Source of the DNA: Candidatus Hydrogenedentota bacterium | GTDB lineage: Bacteria > Hydrogenedentota > Hydrogenedentia > Hydrogenedentales > CAITNO01 | DNA: 33,864 nt | Direction: 5' to 3' | NCBI GenBank assembly: GCA_029776995.1 | Contig: JAKOTZ010000127.1 | Location: 1-33,864 of the forward strand | Notes under the pieces: generated by a model | What the model was told of the DNA's origin: nothing | What the model saw: the letters and a program-made list of their open reading frames with translations, nothing else | The model's database searches: none | Part shown: positions 10,403 through 33,520 of the stretch, piece after piece | Layout of the letters: every line of letters begins with the position of its first letter | Numbering within the stretch: position 1 is the stretch's first letter | Translations under genes and position numbers: made by a program

Positions 10403-11628
10403 TATCCGCGCCCTGAGCGCCGCGCGCCGGCCGGAGCGAAGCGCTGTCCGCTGAACTGCCTGGCCAGACCCTTAAGCTCCAGCATGGTAAGCGCCGCCAG
10501 GGCCTCTGGAACCGGAATCCGGCAAACCATGGCGACCTCATCCACAAACGATCCCTCCGGATTCAGCGCAGCCAGGACATCGGCCTCCACCGGGGTAAGC
10601 GCCTGCGCCGACGCCGGAGGGACGGGAAATTCCTCCGTATGCCGGCCCGCCTGCCTCTGCTTACCGGAATGGGCTTGTGCCGTCTCCCGTTCTTCCGCGG
10701 CACCGAATAAATCCTCCGCATCCGCGCCGCTCCGGGTATCTTTGGGATAAAAATCCTGTGGCAGCCTGAGTTCCTGAAGGATATCATCGGCGGATTCAAC
10801 CAGTTTTGCCCCTTCCCGGATGAGCGCATGGGGTCCCCGGCTGTTGGCGCGGTTCACCGGCCCCGGCACCGCGAACACTTCACGTCCCTGCTCGGCGGCC
10901 AGCCGCGCGGTAATAAGGGAACCGCTTCCGGGCGGCGCTTCCACCACCACCACGCCCATGGACAACCCGCTGATGATGCGGTTACGCTGGGGGAAATGTC
11001 CTTTGAGCGCTTTGGCCCCCATTGGAAAAGGCGAGATCACCGCGCCGTTCCGGATAATGTCCGCCATGAGGTGGGCGTGAAGGGCCGGGAAGACTTCATC
11101 CACTCCGCAACCCAGCACGGCAATGGTCCTCCCGCCGGCCTGGATGGCGCCCCGGTGCGCGGCGCCGTCAATGCCCTCCGCCATGCCGCTTACGACAGTA
11201 ATACCCCGGCGCGCGAGATCCCCTGCGATCCGCTCTGCCTGCTCCAGGCCATAGGAAGAAGGGCGGCGGGTTCCAACGACCGCGACTGCGTAATGATCCG
11301 TTTCAAGCAGCGTACCCCGGACAAACAGCGTCAGGGGGGGATCGTAAATTTCGGCGAGACTGGGAGGATAGTCCGGACATTCCATCGTAACGAGGCGCGC
11401 GCCGCAGGCATCCATGAGCTGTTCCTGCAGGCGGATATCTACCTGCCCGGATGCGCCGTGAACTTCCCGGGCCACTTTGTCTCCGACGATCTCGGCCAGC
11501 GCGGCAACCGGCTGGCGGAGCACTTCACCCGGATCACGGTATCGGGCCAGCAGGCGCAAGAACAGGGCGCTTCCCACCCCTGGCACCATGGCCAGGGTTA
11601 ACCAGTCCTTTTGTCGCGGCGTGAGCAT
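10402..11628 (-). CDS. dprA: DNA-processing protein DprA
   Basis: DprA binds single-stranded DNA entering during natural transformation and loads RecA on it. Seen in 408 residues: an N-terminal SAM/helix-hairpin-helix-like region (about 1-70), then the Rossmann core with YPPSLAEIYDPP, VVGTRRPSSYG, SGMAEGIDGAAH, LGCGVDEVFP, FPQRNRIISGLS and SGSLITARLA, followed by a low-complexity linker (about 290-335) and a C-terminal winged-helix (DML1-type) domain beginning near LTPVEADVL. All core motifs are intact. The start overlaps the stop of the HEAT-repeat gene by one base (TGATG) and its stop overlaps lpxK by one base. Confidence 0.95.
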   Translation of the reverse strand: MLTPRQKDWLTLAMVPGVGSALFLRLLARYRDPGEVLRQPVAALAEIVGDKVAREVHGASGQVDIRLQEQLMDACGARLVTMECPDYPPSLAEIYDPPLTLFVRGTLLETDHYAVAVVGTRRPSSYGLEQAERIAGDLARRGITVVSGMAEGIDGAAHRGAIQAGGRTIAVLGCGVDEVFPALHAHLMADIIRNGAVISPFPMGAKALKGHFPQRNRIISGLSMGVVVVEAPPGSGSLITARLAAEQGREVFAVPGPVNRANSRGPHALIREGAKLVESADDILQELRLPQDFYPKDTRSGADAEDLFGAAEERETAQAHSGKQRQAGRHTEEFPVPPASAQALTPVEADVLAALNPEGSFVDEVAMVCRIPVPEALAALTMLELKGLARQFSGQRFAPAGARRSGRG

Positions 11629-12983
11629 CAGCGTTTTCTTCCAATACTTTTCGGGTTGCGCGCGGATCCCGGTTGGGATGACGCACTGCTTTCCGCCGAA
11701 GATGCCCGCGGGACCGTGCCGTCAGACGCCGGCAACAGGGGCGGCTCCTCTCGGGGAAATTCCAGCGGCTGCGGCGTTACGGCTTCATCTGGGGATTTTG
11801 GGGGAGGCTGCGGCGGAGGGGGCAACATGATCCCCGTTTCCTCCTGATACCAGACCCGCCAAAGTCCCGCGTCTGTTCCCAGGGGCTGTCCCGTTAACGC
11901 GCGCAAGGCTTTTGCGGCGACTTCCCGCATGCCCCGGTTTTGCTCCATTACGGCGATCAGCGCCGGAACCGCGCGAATGGGATCCTTTCGGGCCACACAT
12001 TTCACCGCCACTTCTTCCTGGTACCGACCAACATTTTTCCTGCCGCAGGCGGCCTCGAAAATCCAATTTTCGGATTCCAGGGTACCCAGGGCATCCAGGG
12101 CGGTAACGGCGTCCGGTCCAGCTTCTTCCGGCCGGTTCTCCAGCAGCTCGATCCATACCCTCGCCGCGCAGGGGGGGCGGAGACACCTGAGCGCTTCCTG
12201 GCAACAGCGCGCCAAATCGCCGGTTGCATCCAGCGCCAAAGCGCACAGCAGATCGGACGCGATCCCCGAACCTGAGCGACCCAGCGCCCACGCGGCGACG
12301 CACCGGTGGCGTGCCGGCTCGGACTCCGCCTCCAGGGTTTTCCGCAACAGCGGCGCGATCATGGGACCGATTTCGGGAAGCATGCAGTCCACCGAGAAAA
12401 CCGCATCAGCTTCTCCCCAGGACAGCGTCCGCATAACATACGCGAACAGCTGTTCCCGGGGAATATCCAGCAGGGCATTCCGCGCGCTCAGCCGTACGCG
12501 CTCGTCGGGATGATAACAGGCGTCCGTAAAAATCCCCGGCATGTCCCGAAGCTGTTCCGCGGTGAGCGGCCAGAGTTCGACCGCTTTGGCGTAATCCTCG
12601 GGAGGAGCTGTTTCCCGCAGCCGGTTCAAGAAATCGACCGTTTCCTGTCGGCTGGAAGAGGCGTATCCGGCATCCTCCTCCCGGATTGCCGCATCAGGAA
12701 AGGCCGGCGGCACTTCAGCAGGCGGCATGGAACGGAAGTCCGATCCGTCCTGCTGATCTGTTTCGCTTTCCGGAAAGGCTACGGCTCCGACCGACCGCTC
12801 CGGCACAGCGTTACCGGATGGCGGCAACCGGTCGTCCCGCCCGGGAACGAACGGCGGCGTCTGGGCCAGCGAGAATGTCTGGGCCACGATCCATACCGCC
12901 ATCAGGCAGGAGAAACCACACGGCCGACGCAGGCCACGCATTGGATAACTGCCCATTCCTGTATCCCGTCCGGTGCCAGTCAT
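11628..12983 (-). CDS. Secreted HEAT-repeat protein
   Basis: Up to 451 residues, with an N-terminal hydrophobic signal sequence (around LMAVWIVAQTFSLAQ, cleavage after about residue 41). Start choice is unsure: in-frame ATGs at 12983, 12956 and 12938 would all keep the signal peptide, and none has a strong Shine-Dalgarno site. After a Pro-rich, disordered stretch come helical repeats from about residue 150 to 385 (for example DERVRLSARNALL, AAWALGRSG and REVAAKALRALTG) that look like HEAT/PBS-type repeats used for protein binding. The C-terminal 60 residues are Pro/Ser-rich (PPPPQPPPKSP) and end in basic residues. No enzyme motif is seen. It overlaps dprA by one base. A scaffold in the periplasm is plausible but not shown. 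Confidence 0.75.
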   Translation of the reverse strand: MTGTGRDTGMGSYPMRGLRRPCGFSCLMAVWIVAQTFSLAQTPPFVPGRDDRLPPSGNAVPERSVGAVAFPESETDQQDGSDFRSMPPAEVPPAFPDAAIREEDAGYASSSRQETVDFLNRLRETAPPEDYAKAVELWPLTAEQLRDMPGIFTDACYHPDERVRLSARNALLDIPREQLFAYVMRTLSWGEADAVFSVDCMLPEIGPMIAPLLRKTLEAESEPARHRCVAAWALGRSGSGIASDLLCALALDATGDLARCCQEALRCLRPPCAARVWIELLENRPEEAGPDAVTALDALGTLESENWIFEAACGRKNVGRYQEEVAVKCVARKDPIRAVPALIAVMEQNRGMREVAAKALRALTGQPLGTDAGLWRVWYQEETGIMLPPPPQPPPKSPDEAVTPQPLEFPREEPPLLPASDGTVPRASSAESSASSQPGSARNPKSIGRKR

Positions 12984-13040
12984 AGCGATATTCTAGCGGT
13001 CCCTGCCGTCATTCGCATACGGCCACCCGGCCGCACGCGG

Positions 13041-14285
13041 TCAGGCCGTGTGAAAGATGCCGCCAAGCCTGGCAATGATATCCGCGGGATCTCCCGCGGT
13101 AAGATCCTCAGCCAGGAAGGCCTGTTTGGTGGTCCGCAGCGTAACCACCAGCGTAGGCGGAGCGCCTGGGCGGGGCTGGTCTTCCACGAACATGTATCCG
13201 TCAAAGTGGATCTGGTCCACCCTGCCGACCTCATCTCCGGCGAAGAGTTCATACATGACACGCAGGACGGTATCGCACAGCGCGGTGGTGTATACCGCGG
13301 CGCGCTGTTCCTCCGTGAGCAGCCGCTCATGGAACGTATTGGTCTGTGGGTCATAATCGACGGCGTAAAGCCACGGAAATGTCCGCAGGGGCGGCAACAG
13401 ATACTCGACCTGGATACCCCGGTCCAACTCGTAATAATCCATATCGTAGGAATGCGGAAAGAATTCGGGCAGGCGGGCGTGGGTCAACAGGAGATCGCAG
13501 TAATCCAGCACGGCATAGGGCTCACCCAGCATGTAGGCTTTGCGTTTGGCATCAATGATGGGCTTGCACTGCTCGCGCTCGGTAAGATAACGCTTTCTGG
13601 CCTGTTCCCAAAGGGCAAGCGCCTGTTCATGCTGGGCCTTGAGCGCGCGGACCACCTGCTGGTGACGCTGCAGTTCAGCCTGGTGATGCTGCATGATCCG
13701 CTTGCAGACCTCTTCCCACTGTTTATGGGCCGCTTCGTAGCGGGCCAGCGCCTCCGCTTCTTTTTCTTCGCGCCTGGACCGCACCAGCTTATCCATGGCG
13801 TCCAATTTTGGAATAAAGACTTCGTCCGTGCGCAGGGGTTCCCGTGGAATCCTGGGCATTTCCGGCGGGGGGGGAAATTCCGGAGGATCCGGCTGGGGGA
13901 CCGTGTAGTCGGGATACTCTTTGACTTTTTCCCAATCCAGCCTGGGCGTAGTTTTTACGGCTTCGGACAGGATGCCCGCGATTTCTCTGAGCTCATCCTG
14001 AGCCAGGGCGGTCCGGGCTTCAGCAATTTTAATTTTCTGGGCGGGCTTGAGATCGGGCCTTTTGGCGTTCATTTCCAACCCAAGCCGTTTCCGTTTGACC
14101 TCATTGCGGTGGTCCTGAATGCCCTGCCAGATTTTTTCGACGAGCGCGGCTTTGTGGATTACCAGGAGGGGCATATCACTGAAAACCACCCGCTGTTTAC
14201 CCAGCGAGGGATAGCGAACCGGCATACGGTATAACTGCAGTCCGGATCCGCTCTGGTAACTTTCGAGATCCTGTTCGTCGTACAT
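13041..14285 (-). CDS. Coiled-coil protein related to the N-terminal part of Mrr-type endonucleases, without nuclease domain
   Basis: Predicted 414 residues from the ATG at 14285; the track start at 14303 is a TTG and the ATG has a GGGAAG site upstream. Residues about 50-110 and 185-270 are rich in Arg, Glu, Gln and Ala and are probably coiled coil, separated by a Pro-rich stretch. The last 150 residues (CDLLLTHARLPEFFP, VEYLLPPL, then LRVMYELFAGDEVGRVDQIHFDGYM and AEDLTAGDPADIIARLGGI) match from memory a conserved region that, in many type IV restriction-like proteins, is followed by an Mrr nuclease domain. Here the protein stops straight after that region, and only 57 bases remain before the next gene, so no nuclease is present. 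It has its own likely promoter. Function unknown; no signal peptide, so probably cytoplasmic. Confidence 0.65.
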   Translation of the reverse strand: MYDEQDLESYQSGSGLQLYRMPVRYPSLGKQRVVFSDMPLLVIHKAALVEKIWQGIQDHRNEVKRKRLGLEMNAKRPDLKPAQKIKIAEARTALAQDELREIAGILSEAVKTTPRLDWEKVKEYPDYTVPQPDPPEFPPPPEMPRIPREPLRTDEVFIPKLDAMDKLVRSRREEKEAEALARYEAAHKQWEEVCKRIMQHHQAELQRHQQVVRALKAQHEQALALWEQARKRYLTEREQCKPIIDAKRKAYMLGEPYAVLDYCDLLLTHARLPEFFPHSYDMDYYELDRGIQVEYLLPPLRTFPWLYAVDYDPQTNTFHERLLTEEQRAAVYTTALCDTVLRVMYELFAGDEVGRVDQIHFDGYMFVEDQPRPGAPPTLVVTLRTTKQAFLAEDLTAGDPADIIARLGGIFHTA

Positions 14286-14321: not shown

Positions 14322-14350
14322 ATTTTACACTATACGGTACATTATGTCCA
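14322..14350 (-). promoter_or_regulatory. Likely sigma70-type promoter of the Mrr-associated coiled-coil gene
   Basis: On the minus strand TGGACA (5 of 6) and TAAAAT (5 of 6) are separated by exactly 17 bases. The start of transcription would be near 14315, about 30 bases before the ATG at 14285. It lies right after the thiD stop codon, so it separates the six-gene operon upstream from the coiled-coil, HEAT, dprA and lpxK group. Confidence 0.65.
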
Positions 14351-14353
14351 GTA

Positions 14354-15169
14354 TTATTCCAAATTTTTTGGGCCGGAAATCATCCAGCCGTGGTGCAACG
14401 GGCCGTGCCCCTGCCCCACCTTCAATTCATCGGCTCGCCGAATAGCTTCCGTAAGATAATCTTTAGCCCGGCGAACGGCTTCGGGGACCGGATATCCGAA
14501 ACCGACCATAGTTGCGATGGCGGCCGAAAAGGTACAACCTGTTCCATGGGTATTGGGCGTATTTATTCTTGAACTACGAAAAACACGTATTTCCTCGCCG
14601 TCGTAGAGGTAATCCGTCACATCCTGTCCGTCGGCATGTCCCCCTTTGAGCAGGACCCAGGCGGGACCCAAATCTTTCAGGGCTTTCAGCATATCCTCCG
14701 GTTTATTCACATCCATTGGACGTCCGGTCAGCAGTTCCGCCTCGGGCAGATTCGGGGTCAGTACTGAACAAAGGGGAATAAGTTTCCGGCGCAGCACCTC
14801 CCGCGCGTCGGGCTCTAAAAGGGGATCTCCGCTTTTGGCGGCCATGACCGGATCCACGACGATATTGCGCGCGCCATAACGGTCAAGACGGTCTGCGACC
14901 GCCTCCACAACCGCCGCATCCGCCAGCATCCCGGTTTTGATGGCGTCGCATCCGATATCGTCCATCACCGCGTCCAGCTGGGCCACCACCATATCAGGAT
15001 GCAGGGCTACCGCCCGGGTAACAGCGCGGGTATTCTGCGCGGTAACCGCCGTGATCACGGACATGCCATACCCGCCCAGGGCCAGTATCGTTTTCAGGTC
15101 TGCCTGAATGCCGGCACCTCCGCCGCTGTCACTTCCGGCAATGGTAAGAATTCTTGGAATCCGCTTCAC
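14354..15169 (-). CDS. thiD: Hydroxymethylpyrimidine (phosphate) kinase ThiD
   Basis: ThiD carries out two phosphorylations to make HMP-diphosphate, the pyrimidine half of thiamine. The ribokinase-fold motifs are intact: [18 protein letters not shown] at the N-terminus, [35 protein letters not shown] and the anion-hole and base motif [13 protein letters not shown]. Start: the track uses a TTG at 15175, but AGAGGA directly abuts it, whereas a GTG at 15169 has the same AGAGGA at a 6-base spacing, so I take the GTG (271 residues). No thiamine riboswitch is seen; the gene follows mnmG by 30 bases and is likely the last gene of its operon. Confidence 0.94.
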
Positions 15170-15175
15170 TTTCAA

Positions 15176-21585: not shown

Positions 21586-22953
21586 GTGACCCATCATCCC
21601 AGGCACAAAGGGGGTAAAAGTACGCGGGTCCAGGATGTTGGCTCCGTTCCGCGGGTGTTGATTGCCGACGCCGACCCCAATACGCAGTCCGTAACGAAGA
21701 TTTATTTTGAAGACGAGGGGATGGCCGTTACGTTTGTGTCAAGCTTCAGGGAAGCCCAGGAGGAACTGTCCGGGAAGGAATACGACCTCGCGCTGATAGA
21801 TCTTGCCCTGCCCGGGGGCACCGCGCTGGAACTGCTGGAATGGATCCGAGACCAGGGGTTAACCACGGCTGCCGTGGTGCTTGCCGCATCGATGGACGTG
21901 CAGGAGGCGCTCGCGGCGCTGCACCTGGGGGCGTATGATTTTCTGCTGAAGCCGTTCCACCTCAGCCAACTGGCGTTCGCCGCCCAAAAAGCCCTGGAAC
22001 GCCGTCGTTTACTGCTGGAAAACCTCTCCTATCAGCGGGACCTGGAACGCCGTGTGGAAGAAGCAACCGCCGACCTGCGCAAGGCGAATGAAGCGCTGTA
22101 CGACACCAAAGAATACCTGGAACGCCTCCTGGACAGTTCGACCGACGCAATTTTCACCGTTGACCGGGAGTTCAACATCTCCTACACCAACCGGGGCGCC
22201 AAAGCCATGCTGGGGGATCCGGGGAACCAGCTTGAAGGCATGCCGGTCTCCGCAATCCTGGCCCGGGGCGAAAGCGAAGTCCTGGAACTGCAGGAAGACC
22301 TTCAGGTCGGGCCGGTATATTCCCATGAATCCGTGCTTCGCGCGCTGGACGGACGCCTGATCTCGGTTATCGCGTCGTGTTCCTATGTTCGGGACCAGTC
22401 GGGCAACATCCGCTCGGTCGTGGTGCTGTGCAAAGACATCACCCGCCAGAAACAACTGGAAGAAGAACTGAAAGAGCTGTCCATCAAGGATGGCCTGACC
22501 GGGCTCTACAACCACCGGTATTTCCACGAGAAACTTCGGGAAGAGCTTGAGCGCGCCCGGCGGCAGCGCCGCCCGCTGTCCATGCTGATATTTGACGTGG
22601 ACCACTTTAAGCAATATAACGACACCCACGGGCACCTGGAAGGCGACAAGGTACTGAGAACCATTGGAGAGGTGATCCGGGAACACACCCGGGGCTACGT
22701 GGACACCTGTTTCCGGTACGGCGGGGATGAGTTTGTTGTACTGCTGCCAGACACCGATGAAAGTCAGGCCGAAGGCGTCGCGGAACGGATCCGCCTCGCG
22801 TTTGAAGAAAAGAAGTTCGGCGACTGCACGCTCAGCGTGGGGGTGATGGAATACCGCGACGAGATATCCCCGGAAAGCTTTTTCGCAAAAGCCGACCAGA
22901 TCATGTATGATGCCAAACGCGCGGGGGGAAACCGGGTATACTCGGTCCGGTAA
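21586..22953 (+). CDS. Response regulator with PAS and GGDEF domains (predicted diguanylate cyclase)
   Basis: A 455-residue cytoplasmic signalling protein. Receiver domain about 22-135: acidic pocket DAD, phosphoacceptor Asp72 in ALIDLALPGG and Lys122 in LLKPF. A coiled coil (about 136-180) leads to a PAS domain (about 180-295, starting LLDSSTDAIFTVD), then a GGDEF domain (about 300-455) with DVDHFKQYND for metal and GTP and an intact GGDEF at 379-383, so it should make c-di-GMP. The inhibitory site is not canonical: RGYVD replaces RxxD at the expected distance. The GTG start is the first possible codon after the upstream stop; AGGA touches it with no spacer, so the start is not certain. No histidine kinase is nearby. 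Confidence 0.88.
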   Translation: MTHHPRHKGGKSTRVQDVGSVPRVLIADADPNTQSVTKIYFEDEGMAVTFVSSFREAQEELSGKEYDLALIDLALPGGTALELLEWIRDQGLTTAAVVLAASMDVQEALAALHLGAYDFLLKPFHLSQLAFAAQKALERRRLLLENLSYQRDLERRVEEATADLRKANEALYDTKEYLERLLDSSTDAIFTVDREFNISYTNRGAKAMLGDPGNQLEGMPVSAILARGESEVLELQEDLQVGPVYSHESVLRALDGRLISVIASCSYVRDQSGNIRSVVVLCKDITRQKQLEEELKELSIKDGLTGLYNHRYFHEKLREELERARRQRRPLSMLIFDVDHFKQYNDTHGHLEGDKVLRTIGEVIREHTRGYVDTCFRYGGDEFVVLLPDTDESQAEGVAERIRLAFEEKKFGDCTLSVGVMEYRDEISPESFFAKADQIMYDAKRAGGNRVYSVR

Positions 22954-22999
22954 GGGGAAATCGACGCGCACGCAAAAAGGCAACAGCGGGAGCCAATCC

Positions 23000-23821
23000 A
23001 TGAAACTGGGAATCTGCAACGAGATTTTTAAGGAATGGAATGACATCGAACGGACGATCCATTATGTCCGGGAAATCGGCTACGATGGGCTCGAGATTGC
23101 GCCCTTCACGCTGGCGCCCTACGTAACGGAGATATCCGACCAGACCCGGCGTCAAATCACACGCGCCGCCAGCGCGGCGGGCCTGGATATTCTGGGAATC
23201 CACTGGGTATTTGTCGGCCCGAAACCTGAAGAGGTTTACCTGACCCATCCCGACCCGGAGGTCAGGCGGTTCACGGCACAATACCTGATTGATCTGGTCC
23301 GCTTCTGCGGAGATATCGGAGGGCGGATTCTGGTTTTCGGTTCGCCCAGGCAGCGAAACGTCCTTCGGGACGTGACCTATAACCAGGCTTTCGGCTGGGC
23401 GAGGGAAGTCTTTGAGCAGGCGCTGCCCGCCTGCGAACAGCACGGCGTAACCATCTGCATGGAACAGCTGACCCACCTGGAAACCAATTTCTGCCAGACG
23501 CCGGAAGAAACGGTGGAACTGATTGAAGCGATCAACCACCCGAATTTCCAGCTGCTGCTGGACACAAAGGCGATGTCCTTTCTGCCGGAAGACCGGCCGA
23601 CGGTGATCCGGAAATATGGAAAATACCTGAAACATTACCACGCCAATGACGCCAACATGCACGGTCCGGGGTGGGGTGATGTGGATTTCGGCCCGATTTT
23701 TGACGCGCTATACGATATAAACTATACAGGATATGTTTCTGTGGAAGTATTCCGTTTTGAGGCGGGACCGGAGGCCATAGCCACCCGCAGCCTGGAATAT
23801 CTGAAACGCTTTCTGCGTTAG
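23000..23821 (+). CDS. Sugar phosphate isomerase/epimerase-like TIM-barrel protein
   Basis: A 273-residue protein of the xylose isomerase-like (AP endonuclease 2) TIM-barrel group. The ATG at 23000 (MKLGICNEIF) is preferred to the track start at 22907, because the latter overlaps the GGDEF gene and adds a non-conserved basic stretch; GGGAG lies upstream of 23000. Candidate metal ligands in the usual order are Glu155 (CMEQL), Asp188 (LLDTKAM), His214 (HYHAND) and Glu249 (SVEVF). Known members convert ketoses, inosose or hydroxypyruvate, and sequence alone does not show which. It lies 46 bases after the GGDEF gene and 24 bases before pdxH. Confidence 0.85.
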   Translation: MKLGICNEIFKEWNDIERTIHYVREIGYDGLEIAPFTLAPYVTEISDQTRRQITRAASAAGLDILGIHWVFVGPKPEEVYLTHPDPEVRRFTAQYLIDLVRFCGDIGGRILVFGSPRQRNVLRDVTYNQAFGWAREVFEQALPACEQHGVTICMEQLTHLETNFCQTPEETVELIEAINHPNFQLLLDTKAMSFLPEDRPTVIRKYGKYLKHYHANDANMHGPGWGDVDFGPIFDALYDINYTGYVSVEVFRFEAGPEAIATRSLEYLKRFLR

Positions 23822-29251: not shown

Positions 29252-32200
29252 TCAGTCCGTGTCGGTATAACTGAACCAGATGGGGCCGTATATGCCCGTA
29301 ATCCGGATGGATCCGTAGTTGTAATCCAGATAAAATTCGCCGGAGTATTCCCCTGGCTCCGTCTGCGCGCGGTCGGCCTGAACGGTGAATGTGCCGGGGA
29401 CTTCCGTAAGGCCGGAGACCTGCTCGATTACAGGCTCATAAACAAAAGCGCCTACTCCGGTTCCGGACAAAGACATCGGTCCCTGGCGAACCGTCCAGTA
29501 CAGCTGCACGTCCGTCGGGAGATGGGATCCGCCCTTATTGAAGACGTTCATCGTAACCGGCTCCGTAACTGTGTCCAGGTCGATCACGCTGTTCTCCACA
29601 TCCGTGAACAGGTCTGGGGCCAGCGTAACCATGGGCCGTGGCAGCGACGGCGCGCGGAAGGGCGACTCAACAACCCGAATGGTATCGGGGTAGGTGAAGT
29701 ATTTTCCGTCCGGAGAACCATCGTAAACGGGGGCGTCCACCGAAAGCCGCACCAGGAACGGAGCGGTTGCGCCCGTTACCGTAATATTGAACAGGGAGCC
29801 CCAGTCCCCATACTGCAGGGTACGCCCCGCCGGGGCCGTCATGGTAAACGGCGCGCCCACGACCGGCGTGCCGGTCCATTCAGCAAACAATCCGCCTTCT
29901 GTTGATGGAGCCGGCGCAATAGCCACCGTAGCACCCGGCGCATCTTCAACATTGATGGTAAAGGTCATCTGGGTGATATTTCTGGGCGCGTAATCCATAT
30001 AAACCGTCACGGTCGTCGCTCCGCCGCTGACCAGGCCGTCCGACTTCATGCCAATCTGGCCCAGCTTAACGTCATCCGCATAGGCTTCGTAAGGCACATC
30101 ATTAATTTCGATGAAGCCCGAAACCGGAGGCGTACGGTCGGTAACCGTCATTGTCAATCCCATTTTCGCCGTTGTGGATTCGTTCAGGGATACGTACTGA
30201 AGCGTCACGTGGGAACGCAGATCCTTGGGTATGGAGGAGGCGTTCTCAGGGTCACCCGGATCGGTGCGGCACCATTTGAGCAGTTCGCTCAACAACGGAG
30301 TTTTTGATCCGTCGCTGTTGCGCCTGACATCTGTGGCGTAATAATGGCCGCCTATACCCGCAGAGATCCGCACCAGCGAATTGGCCAGGATGTCATTGCC
30401 CCACCCCACGGCGAATACCCGCGTCCTCGTGGATTCCAGGAAATCACGCACCGGTCCCAGTTCGCCCGGCGGCGTAGTGCGGCGTCCGTCACTGACCAGA
30501 ATCAGGATGCTTTCATCGCCGCTGTCGAAGGGGATATAGTGCCTTCCCCGATCCACGCTGTACAGCGTAACCGCGCCGGCAAGCACAGCCGGTAACAGCT
30601 CCGTAGCTCCATTATCCTGAACATCCAGCTGCTGCAGACGGTACTGTAATACGGTTTTGTCCTGTACAAACGCTTCGGAAACCATCCAGGAAGCGGGATC
30701 AGGCGCGCCATAAATCAGCCGCAGCGGTGTCTGGTAGTAAGGACTGCGTTCATTAAAGATGCCAAGCGCCACTTTGCACTGCTGCGGCAGTTCATCAATC
30801 AGTTCGGCCACGCACTGCTGATACAGCGCGGTCAGGGCGTCCACCCCAGGCGGCGGGGTCAGCTGTCCATCCGCCACCAACGCCTCGGCGGCCGCTCTCA
30901 TACTGCCGGAAAAGTCCAGCATGATGAGCACGTTAAAGCTCAGCCGTTCATCTTTTTTGACAAACACGCTGGTTTCAGAGGTTTCGAGCGGCTGATTGTC
31001 TTCGGTAATCAGAGGCTCCAGATTAACCGCCGGATACAGGATCCGGGGATCCACCGGATCATCCTCCAGGAAAGAGAACGGGCGGAACGCGCTGTCCCTC
31101 AGGAGCAGGTTTGCCCTCAGAAGAGACGGCGGCCGAAGCATAGGCAGGGCCGTTTCAATAGTAAGGTCCGCCACATCCACGGATATTTCAATTTCAACCG
31201 GGGTAACCGGGAGGGCATCCGGCGGCACATCCACTGCCCGGACGATCAACTTGCCGACTGCGCCGGTGGAAGAGATGCGCGACCTGTCAATAGAGACGTC
31301 CAGCTGCCGCCAGTCCGGAACAATTCCCGCCGGCACGCCTATACTTTGCCCGAAACGGGGCTCCACAAACAACCATTCGGGCCGGGTGGATTCCACCTCG
31401 AAATATAGTGTTTCACCGGGATCACCCAGATTGGCCACCTCCACGACAGCCGTATTGTCATACCGTCCCATGGCCAGGCGGGATGGACGGGTACCGATAA
31501 TCAGCCTGAAAGGAACCCGTACCTGCACTTCCAAAATCACCTGGGGCCGCAGCGGATCGTTGGACTCCAGCACCAGATTGTACGTTGCGCCTTCGCGGCC
31601 CAGGGTGGAGCGGTCGACAGTAACCGTCACCGACTGTTGGCGTCCGGCGCGCACCTGACCCTGCTGAGGATTAATGGAAGTGATCCAGGAGGGAATCTGC
31701 TGGTCCTGCGCCACCCGCCAGGTCAGGTCACCCTCTCCGCTGTTCACGATGGTGAAAGACTGCTGATCCTCTCCGATGGCCAGATTTATGAAGGGCGTTC
31801 CGGATCCGTCCTGGCCCTCGCCGACCACCTCAAAAACCGGATATTTGGGGACACTTCCGGCAACCGTCACCTGGACAGATCCCGTAAAATCGCCGGATGC
31901 GTTTACAGTAAAGGTATGGCTGAAATTGGTCTGCCCGGCAGTCACCAGAGCACGGTCTACCCGAAGTTCAAAAGTCTGAGTCGCCGCACCAGAAAGGGAT
32001 CCAGAGGTAGGCCCGACCAGCGTAAGCCATGCCGGGAACGCGGAAGTATCAATATTCCAGTTCACCGTCCCGATGCCGTCATTCCACACGGCCACGGTTT
32101 CCCCTGAACGGACATCGCCCAGGTTAATATCGGTAGGCGCCACGCGCAACGCCGCGGGCCGCGGCCTGCTGAAGGCAACGCTGACCGTGTCAAACCCATT

Positions 32201-33457
32201 GTCCGCGCTGATCCGGAGTTCCGCTGAATAAGTTCCCGGATCCACCTGAGCGGGATCAACAGAAACCGTAAGGTCCTGAGATGCCCCGCCCGCCAGGGTC
32301 CCTGAAGCAGGCGAAAAAGATAACCACTGTGATCCGGACACATTCTGAGCGCTCCAGCCCACCGCGGAGGTTCCCAGGTTGGTCAGTGTGACCACGCCCT
32401 GGGTTACGCCGGTAATCTCACCCAAATCCAGGGTTGTCGGCGCCACCTCAAACCGGGAATAGGTCAGGGTAACCGGAACCTCCTGGAACAGCTCGCCGCC
32501 GGGCACAGAAACCGTTACCGTTCCGGAATATGCTCCCGGTACCAGGGAAGCGATATTTGCCGTTACATTCACCAGCCCAGTGCTGGAGGCCGCCACGGTA
32601 ACGCTGGCCTGGCTCACCGTCAGCCAGCTTCCGCCATCCGCGGTCTGAGCGGCCACGTTGAATGTAACCGGCTCCGCGCTCTGGTTGACCAGGCTCAGCG
32701 AGCGGGTCGTGTTCTGTCGGACTCTCCCGAAATCAATGGAAGTTGGCGCCACGCGGAGGTAGGGTACCCGCACAGAGACATTTACCAGGGCATTTCCACC
32801 GTTAGATGAAATGCCCAGCACGGCCGTATACGGATCCGGCCTGCCCGTAACCGCATTTCGGTCGACCTGGACGGTTACCGCGCTTTGCCCGCCAAATACC
32901 GGAATGGTTCCGGTGGCAGGCGTAACCGAAAGCCAGGGCGCCGTGGCCGGAACCGCAATCTGCCATTCCAGCGGGGCATTTCCCTGATTGGTCAGGGTCA
33001 GAACCTGCTCCACCAGGTTTTGCCCGAAATCAATGGAATCCGCGGAAACTTCAAGCAGCGGCGCATATTCCCGCGTAACCGCCACCTTAACTGTCTTATC
33101 CCCTCCGTTGGAAGTGATCAGAATCTCGCCTTTTGGTGTCGGCGTGTTGGGTAACTGTTCCGAAACGATATCCACCTGCAGAAAATACGGGCTGGAGGCT
33201 GTCGCGGTACCGTTAAGGCTGGAAGCCTTTTCCGCCGGTACGGTTTTTTGCGAAAGCTGAATCCAGGGCGTCTGCGTTTCAGCGGAAAAACGCAGTGTCC
33301 CACCACCCGTGTTTTCAATCCGAAGCACCGTTCCCGTGACACTCTGGTCCAGAGCGATGGATCCAGGCGTTACGCTGAGCACAGGAGTCAACGCCGGACA
33401 TCCTGTCAAGAACAGCCCTGTCAGGGAAGCCAGCAACATCAACCATATTCTGGGCAT
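29252..33457 (-). CDS. Giant surface lipoprotein with Ig/BACON-like repeats and a VWA domain
   Basis: Predicted 1,401 residues from the ATG at 33457 (MPRIWLM), chosen over 33481 because it gives a standard lipoprotein leader ending in LTGC with Cys20. The first two-thirds consist of about seven beta-sandwich repeats of some 90-110 residues, each opening with a variant of LRVAPTSIDFGRV and followed by a hydrophobic-strand pattern with WLxVxP, as in BACON or choice-of-anchor domains. A VWA domain follows with a complete MIDAS: DFSGS near 847-852, Thr in NGATELL and Asp in VSDGRRTT. The last 330 residues are further beta-rich regions. This suggests a cell-surface adhesin or binder held by lipid. 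It is probably in one operon with the related partial gene upstream. Confidence 0.85.
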   Translation of the reverse strand: MPRIWLMLLASLTGLFLTGCPALTPVLSVTPGSIALDQSVTGTVLRIENTGGGTLRFSAETQTPWIQLSQKTVPAEKASSLNGTATASSPYFLQVDIVSEQLPNTPTPKGEILITSNGGDKTVKVAVTREYAPLLEVSADSIDFGQNLVEQVLTLTNQGNAPLEWQIAVPATAPWLSVTPATGTIPVFGGQSAVTVQVDRNAVTGRPDPYTAVLGISSNGGNALVNVSVRVPYLRVAPTSIDFGRVRQNTTRSLSLVNQSAEPVTFNVAAQTADGGSWLTVSQASVTVAASSTGLVNVTANIASLVPGAYSGTVTVSVPGGELFQEVPVTLTYSRFEVAPTTLDLGEITGVTQGVVTLTNLGTSAVGWSAQNVSGSQWLSFSPASGTLAGGASQDLTVSVDPAQVDPGTYSAELRISADNGFDTVSVAFSRPRPAALRVAPTDINLGDVRSGETVAVWNDGIGTVNWNIDTSAFPAWLTLVGPTSGSLSGAATQTFELRVDRALVTAGQTNFSHTFTVNASGDFTGSVQVTVAGSVPKYPVFEVVGEGQDGSGTPFINLAIGEDQQSFTIVNSGEGDLTWRVAQDQQIPSWITSINPQQGQVRAGRQQSVTVTVDRSTLGREGATYNLVLESNDPLRPQVILEVQVRVPFRLIIGTRPSRLAMGRYDNTAVVEVANLGDPGETLYFEVESTRPEWLFVEPRFGQSIGVPAGIVPDWRQLDVSIDRSRISSTGAVGKLIVRAVDVPPDALPVTPVEIEISVDVADLTIETALPMLRPPSLLRANLLLRDSAFRPFSFLEDDPVDPRILYPAVNLEPLITEDNQPLETSETSVFVKKDERLSFNVLIMLDFSGSMRAAAEALVADGQLTPPPGVDALTALYQQCVAELIDELPQQCKVALGIFNERSPYYQTPLRLIYGAPDPASWMVSEAFVQDKTVLQYRLQQLDVQDNGATELLPAVLAGAVTLYSVDRGRHYIPFDSGDESILILVSDGRRTTPPGELGPVRDFLESTRTRVFAVGWGNDILANSLVRISAGIGGHYYATDVRRNSDGSKTPLLSELLKWCRTDPGDPENASSIPKDLRSHVTLQYVSLNESTTAKMGLTMTVTDRTPPVSGFIEINDVPYEAYADDVKLGQIGMKSDGLVSGGATTVTVYMDYAPRNITQMTFTINVEDAPGATVAIAPAPSTEGGLFAEWTGTPVVGAPFTMTAPAGRTLQYGDWGSLFNITVTGATAPFLVRLSVDAPVYDGSPDGKYFTYPDTIRVVESPFRAPSLPRPMVTLAPDLFTDVENSVIDLDTVTEPVTMNVFNKGGSHLPTDVQLYWTVRQGPMSLSGTGVGAFVYEPVIEQVSGLTEVPGTFTVQADRAQTEPGEYSGEFYLDYNYGSIRITGIYGPIWFSYTDTD
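31400..33360 (-). repeat. Tandem Ig/BACON-like domain repeats inside the giant lipoprotein
   Basis: About seven degenerate protein repeats are encoded here, each starting with a hydrophobic strand and a V-x-P-T-x-I-D-x-G type motif. At DNA level they are diverged, with only short shared words such as GGCGCCAC at the VAPT position, so they are old duplications or converged under selection rather than recent copies. Confidence 0.75.
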
Positions 33458-33520
33458 ATGAGTAACCCCGTTTTCAGTCATCGAGCCGGCAAGTCATAAC
33501 CGACCCTGAAGACGCTACCT

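Follow-up and report, generated by a model that had tools for sequence, protein, structure and literature searches.

What becomes of the sensing half of a restriction enzyme when its nuclease is gone is a question raised by a minus-strand gene in a contig of Candidatus Hydrogenedentota (JAKOTZ010000127.1; the window analyzed here is its whole stretch of 33,864 nucleotides). A sequence-only reading had matched the last 150 residues of the gene product to the region that precedes the nuclease in Mrr-type proteins, and had noted that the gene stops where the nuclease should begin. The features of the locus are as follows.

13041..14285, minus strand: nuclease-free mREase_IV-like protein of 414 aa, start ATG at 14285, stop codon 13043..13041
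14172..14285, minus strand: residues 1–38, N-terminal three-stranded sheet (model strands E8–11, E17–25 and E30–36, and alignment)
13530..14171, minus strand: residues 39–252, basic helices, Pro-rich linker and long coiled-coil helix 169–252 (model helices H39–74, H81–102 and H169–252)
13044..13529, minus strand: residues 253–414, C-terminal acidic alpha/beta domain, then the stop codon (separate model and family alignment)
12984..13040, minus strand: gap of 57 bases, without a nuclease frame, to the next same-strand gene (start 12983)
14354..15175, minus strand: thiD, upstream of the mREase_IV-like gene (tblastn synteny)

Relationship of the protein to type IV restriction enzymes

The 414-residue protein had no Pfam match and no meaningful NCBIfam family match. 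The PADLOC profile for mREase_IV (PDLC03663) matched residues 200–407 (E 1.2e-10), and all 15 host-family members scanned against it also matched. Alignment with hhalign of the host-family profile to a profile of five relatives, mostly nuclease-bearing with one (L020) nuclease-free, gave a probability of 100 and an E-value of 2.8e-47. These matches bear out the link to Mrr-type proteins that had been proposed for the C-terminal 150 residues; those residues are indeed homologous, but the homology is in fact nearly full length, with residues 9–412 collinear. The nuclease-bearing relatives were drawn from plasmids and viral contigs, and the window protein shares only ~20% identity with them. The relatives matching PDLC03663, such as Pseudochrobactrum P0002, Agrobacterium P0003 and that of the viral contig L073, share the domain order of the window protein: N-terminal half, then coiled coil, then C-terminal alpha/beta domain. 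Comparison by eye indicated that the N-terminal sheet and helix are also present in the nuclease-bearing L069, L070 and L073, and in a relative from genome G048 (L020) a DUF4236 domain precedes the stretch matching the sheet. A linker and an Mrr_cat nuclease are present in the PDLC03663 relatives and missing from the window protein, which is chromosomal and universal in its family.

The last position of the window protein aligns with residue 396 of P0002, in which Pfam Mrr_cat spans residues 433–549; the window protein is thus without the linker as well as the nuclease. The gene therefore does stop before the nuclease, though not exactly at its start as had been thought: the protein halts after its last conserved domain, ~35–40 residues ahead of the expected beginning of Mrr_cat. 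By sequence comparison, it corresponds to the whole pre-nuclease part of mREase_IV enzymes, ending at a domain edge. The Mrr_cat domain was absent from the window protein and from every complete family member, and tblastn with three Mrr regions found no significant nuclease remnant, frameshifted or split, in the window or the 16 sister loci (best E 0.045), in agreement with the earlier statement that the 57-base gap holds no shifted nuclease frame. Among the 10 other window proteins scanned, none had a restriction-type nuclease domain; an AP_endonuc_2 match at 22907–23818 belongs to the xylose-isomerase-like TIM barrel family and is not a nuclease of this type. The nuclease that defines a restriction enzyme was looked for and is absent, so the window protein should not be classed as one. 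Its origin is ordinary, being in the known mREase_IV family, but its state is unusual, as it is a nuclease-free member behaving as a core gene.

Conservation of the gene in the Hydrogenedentaceae

Our survey covered 68 draft metagenome assemblies of the phylum, 17 from the host family (Candidatus Hydrogenedentota, Hydrogenedentaceae) and 51 others. The gene was present as one copy in all 17 family genomes and in only one of the other 51. The complete copies, which represent seven genera, all end at the identical alignment position (the G013 and G009 copies are cut by contig ends and that of G014 is without its start), and no family copy had an internal stop. This common end point and the lack of a remnant nearby uphold the view of the nuclease-free form as a genuine conserved protein, and not the outcome of a frameshift or of a break in the assembly.

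Restriction proteins are normally patchy in distribution, mobile and quick to evolve. Between this genome and its genus sister, the dN/dS of the mREase_IV-like gene was 0.033, compared with 0.046 for TetR, 0.048 for mnmG, 0.094 for thiD, 0.097 for dprA and 0.165 for lpxK, ratios that are approximate because dS is near saturation. The ranking by pN/pS was similar, the mREase_IV-like gene again being lowest (0.077 versus 0.108–0.402). Purifying selection on the gene is very strong, above that on mnmG, thiD and dprA.

The one constant feature of its surroundings is a same-strand thiD immediately upstream, seen in 15/15 readable family loci at distances of tens to a few hundred bases, while other neighbors vary. 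In this genome the neighbors are thiD, a HEAT-like protein and dprA.

Nuclease-free relatives on plasmids and viral contigs

The nearest relative outside the host family is L020 of G048 (support 95/86), which has the N-terminal DUF4236 domain and also ends ahead of the nuclease. The DUF4236 proteins (L020 and P0009, from a ter operon) resemble the window protein in being nuclease-free and in having the same C-terminal region, but they carry DUF4236 (PF14020) at their N-terminus, which the window protein does not. A DUF4236 match was found in only one of 15 members scanned.

A different arrangement was seen on a Kocuria rosea plasmid (NZ_CP126484.1, L064:1784-4404), in which the gene for a nuclease-free protein of 415 residues (P0007; mREase_IV-like, E 1.9e-41) overlaps by one base the gene for P0008, which has DUF4041 and GIY-YIG (T5orf172) domains and a match to PADLOC PD-Lambda-1 (E 2e-96). 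A similar pair with an overlap of a few bases was present on a viral contig (L076:4821-7362), although its first gene appears split. Both modules share with the window a nuclease-free mREase_IV-like protein, but differ in the DUF4041 and GIY-YIG gene that directly follows, an arrangement not found in the host family. In the window protein itself, neither DUF4041 nor GIY-YIG gave a Pfam or PADLOC match. The DUF4041 domain of SNIPE promotes binding to DNA, and without its membrane anchor the nuclease is toxic to the host (PMC13190303). In the PD-Lambda-1/SNIPE-type genes of the Kocuria and L076 modules, no membrane anchor is obvious, and the N-terminus is instead rich in Pro and Trp. These pairs are possibly a variant of SNIPE that leaves tethering or restraint to the upstream protein.

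The ter operon of Enterobacterales plasmids (Leclercia IncHI2A, L077:3515-4723) includes a DUF4236 protein that appears to share the C-terminal region, and on an Aromatoleum plasmid a shorter nuclease-free protein is beside terB and terC (L078:3830-4651). The membership of P0009 was based on tblastn from L073 (~25% identity, E ~1e-5) and visible motif agreement; hhalign of the family profile against the single P0009 sequence was not significant. The sequences associated with ter genes have long branches, and of the whole set it is their assignment to the family that is weakest. In the literature we found nothing linking DUF4236 with restriction or tellurium. We also considered and rejected the window protein as a component of a Ter stress-response cluster: TerD is absent from this genome, and the gene sits with thiD, the HEAT-like protein and dprA.

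Both states were found when relatives with and without the nuclease were counted, as the earlier reading had proposed, although the collections were small and biased and the counts are not frequencies. Ten of the 11 viral-contig loci had the nuclease in the same frame, the other being the two-gene module. A search with the pre-nuclease part of L073 yielded 24 plasmid records, of which 15 were nuclease-bearing by annotation or reading and six were nuclease-free (Kocuria, four Enterobacterales ter plasmids and Aromatoleum); two Pseudonocardia copies were in two pieces, and one unannotated Streptomyces record was not assigned a state. On one Pseudonocardia plasmid (L079:2249-3568), the mREase_IV gene is annotated as pre-nuclease and nuclease pieces and is probably broken.

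With the nuclease columns left out of the alignment, the unrooted tree showed three changes of nuclease state, and a single nuclease-free clade was rejected (p 7e-7). On this tree, nuclease-free forms outside the host family arose separately. The host family and G048 branch beside the nuclease-bearing L073 (96/82), and loss of the nuclease in the host lineage is likely, with the direction (lost here or gained in the relatives) not fixed because the tree is unrooted.

Predicted structure of the protein

AlphaFold2 modeled the whole protein with a mean pLDDT of 90.8 (11 sequences) and the C-terminal domain alone with a mean of 91.3 (22 sequences). In the model, a small sheet of three strands is followed by basic helices, a Pro-rich stretch and a helix of 84 residues; the alpha/beta domain at the end is the most widely conserved part of the family by alignment. 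Foldseek searches of the PDB with the whole protein and the C-terminal domain gave no convincing match to a solved structure and none to an enzyme-like fold. The best PDB fold matches were CamS sex-pheromone precursors (E 0.01 for the whole protein and 0.001 for the C-terminal domain), for which homology was not accepted at TM-scores of only 0.12 and 0.25, respectively. A viral structure library gave no match below 0.001, and a sequence search of solved structures gave none.

The charge of the two ends differs. Helix 39–112 has a net charge of +2 to +11, and the C-terminal domain has one of -6 to -18 in the family. The C-terminal domain is mostly acidic in nuclease-bearing relatives too (-1 to -13), so its acidity is not special to the nuclease-free form. 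This acidity argues against direct DNA binding by that domain; the charge pattern is only suggestive, and binding by the basic N-terminal half is putative.

Possible role of the protein in the host family

Based on its collinearity and profile matches with the mREase_IV family, single copy in 17/17 family genomes against 1/51 elsewhere in the phylum, fixed end point, thiD neighbor, low dN/dS, folded model and the recurrence of nuclease-free forms, we consider it rather probable that the protein is a domesticated, nuclease-free member of that family, acting as a housekeeping coiled-coil adaptor. A protein with the build of a restriction enzyme's sensing half has probably been turned from part of a weapon into a routine cellular protein, whose mode of action may resemble that of the non-catalytic portion of a type IV restriction protein. 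The basic N-terminal half would contact nucleic acid or another partner, and the acidic C-terminal domain would bind a protein. In the restriction enzymes, we suppose, the latter would both hold the Mrr nuclease in cis and release it, while in the host family the output would be a cellular partner and not a nuclease encoded next door. With such a partner, the role would be routine (regulation, stress sensing or scaffolding) and not restriction; the regulatory or scaffold role suggested earlier is compatible with the data. More tentatively, and with somewhat less than even expectation, we speculate that the pre-Mrr region is an autonomous adaptor for varied effectors (the Mrr nuclease in cis, a SNIPE-type nuclease in trans, Ter systems) that has become a core nuclease-free regulator in the Hydrogenedentaceae.

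It is unlikely that the protein still serves in defence with a nuclease provided in trans from elsewhere in the genome, on the pattern of the Kocuria and viral modules. The overlapping genes of those modules show that such pairs exist. However, no nuclease was seen adjoining the gene in the family loci, and DUF4041 was found in 0/17 family genomes, in a search that is weak since it had no positive control. Proteins with Mrr_cat were found in only 11/17 family genomes. The one in this genome (L003 1006-1950) is E. coli Mrr-like (PDLC03657, E 3.1e-89) and, like the relatives of the window protein, belongs to type IV restriction in a broad sense, but its likeness to PDLC03663 is confined to the nuclease, a part missing from the window protein. 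It was rejected as a partner, being of a different family, with Mrr_cat not universal in the host family. The universality, stable locus and strong constraint of the window gene are also unlike those of a defence gene.

We regard as slightly less probable again an enzymatic or structural role tied to ThiD and the thiamine pathway, in which the likeness to restriction proteins would reflect a shared scaffold only. In its favor, thiD is the sole constant neighbor; against it, the fold searches returned nothing enzyme-like. In addition, the genes ahead of thiD vary by genus (mnmG, topA and others), such that the two genes may be a mere inherited pair, reflecting gene order and not a functional link.

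An inhibitor or dominant-negative form of a full-length Mrr-type protein, or a shield against incoming mREase_IV through mixed dead oligomers, seems quite improbable. Its coiled coil and its collinearity with the regulatory part speak for such a role, but no nuclease-bearing, full-length relative was found in this genome, the 16 other family genomes or the 51 other phylum genomes. The earlier proposal that the protein may inhibit or partner a full-length copy elsewhere consequently fails for the phylum genomes searched, and with ~20% identity to the nuclease-bearing forms mixed oligomers are unlikely. Finally, although the catalytic domain is missing, the reading of the gene as a restriction gene that is simply truncated, decayed to a pseudogene or misassembled has practically no chance of being correct and was ruled out by the end point shared across seven genera, the lack of a remnant or internal stops and the strong selection along its entire length.

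Here a restriction protein's non-catalytic part is universal in one family, fixed beside thiD and more constrained than mnmG, which provides a clean natural case for asking what the pre-Mrr region does without a nuclease. No Pfam or NCBIfam model used here covers this region, and the PDLC03663 defence profile can mislabel a core cellular gene as a type IV restriction enzyme. If the adaptor reading is true, a defence sensor has been recruited to housekeeping, with a C-terminal domain that is structurally undescribed.

Additional observations on the window

A sigma-70-like site (10/12) is located at 14350..14322, between thiD and the mREase_IV-like gene, with about one such site expected by chance in the scanned region; it may provide the mREase_IV-like gene with a promoter separate from that of thiD. 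The gene that follows the mREase_IV-like gene (11628–12983) encodes a product with weak HEAT-repeat similarity and overlaps the start of dprA by one base. It is fast-evolving, with 56% identity within the genus and a dN/dS of 0.146, and was not found beside the mREase_IV-like gene outside the genus. At 29255–33481, the window encodes a long protein with repeated BACON/ASH-type Ig-like domains, to which the repeats of HYDIN/Cep192 are similar.
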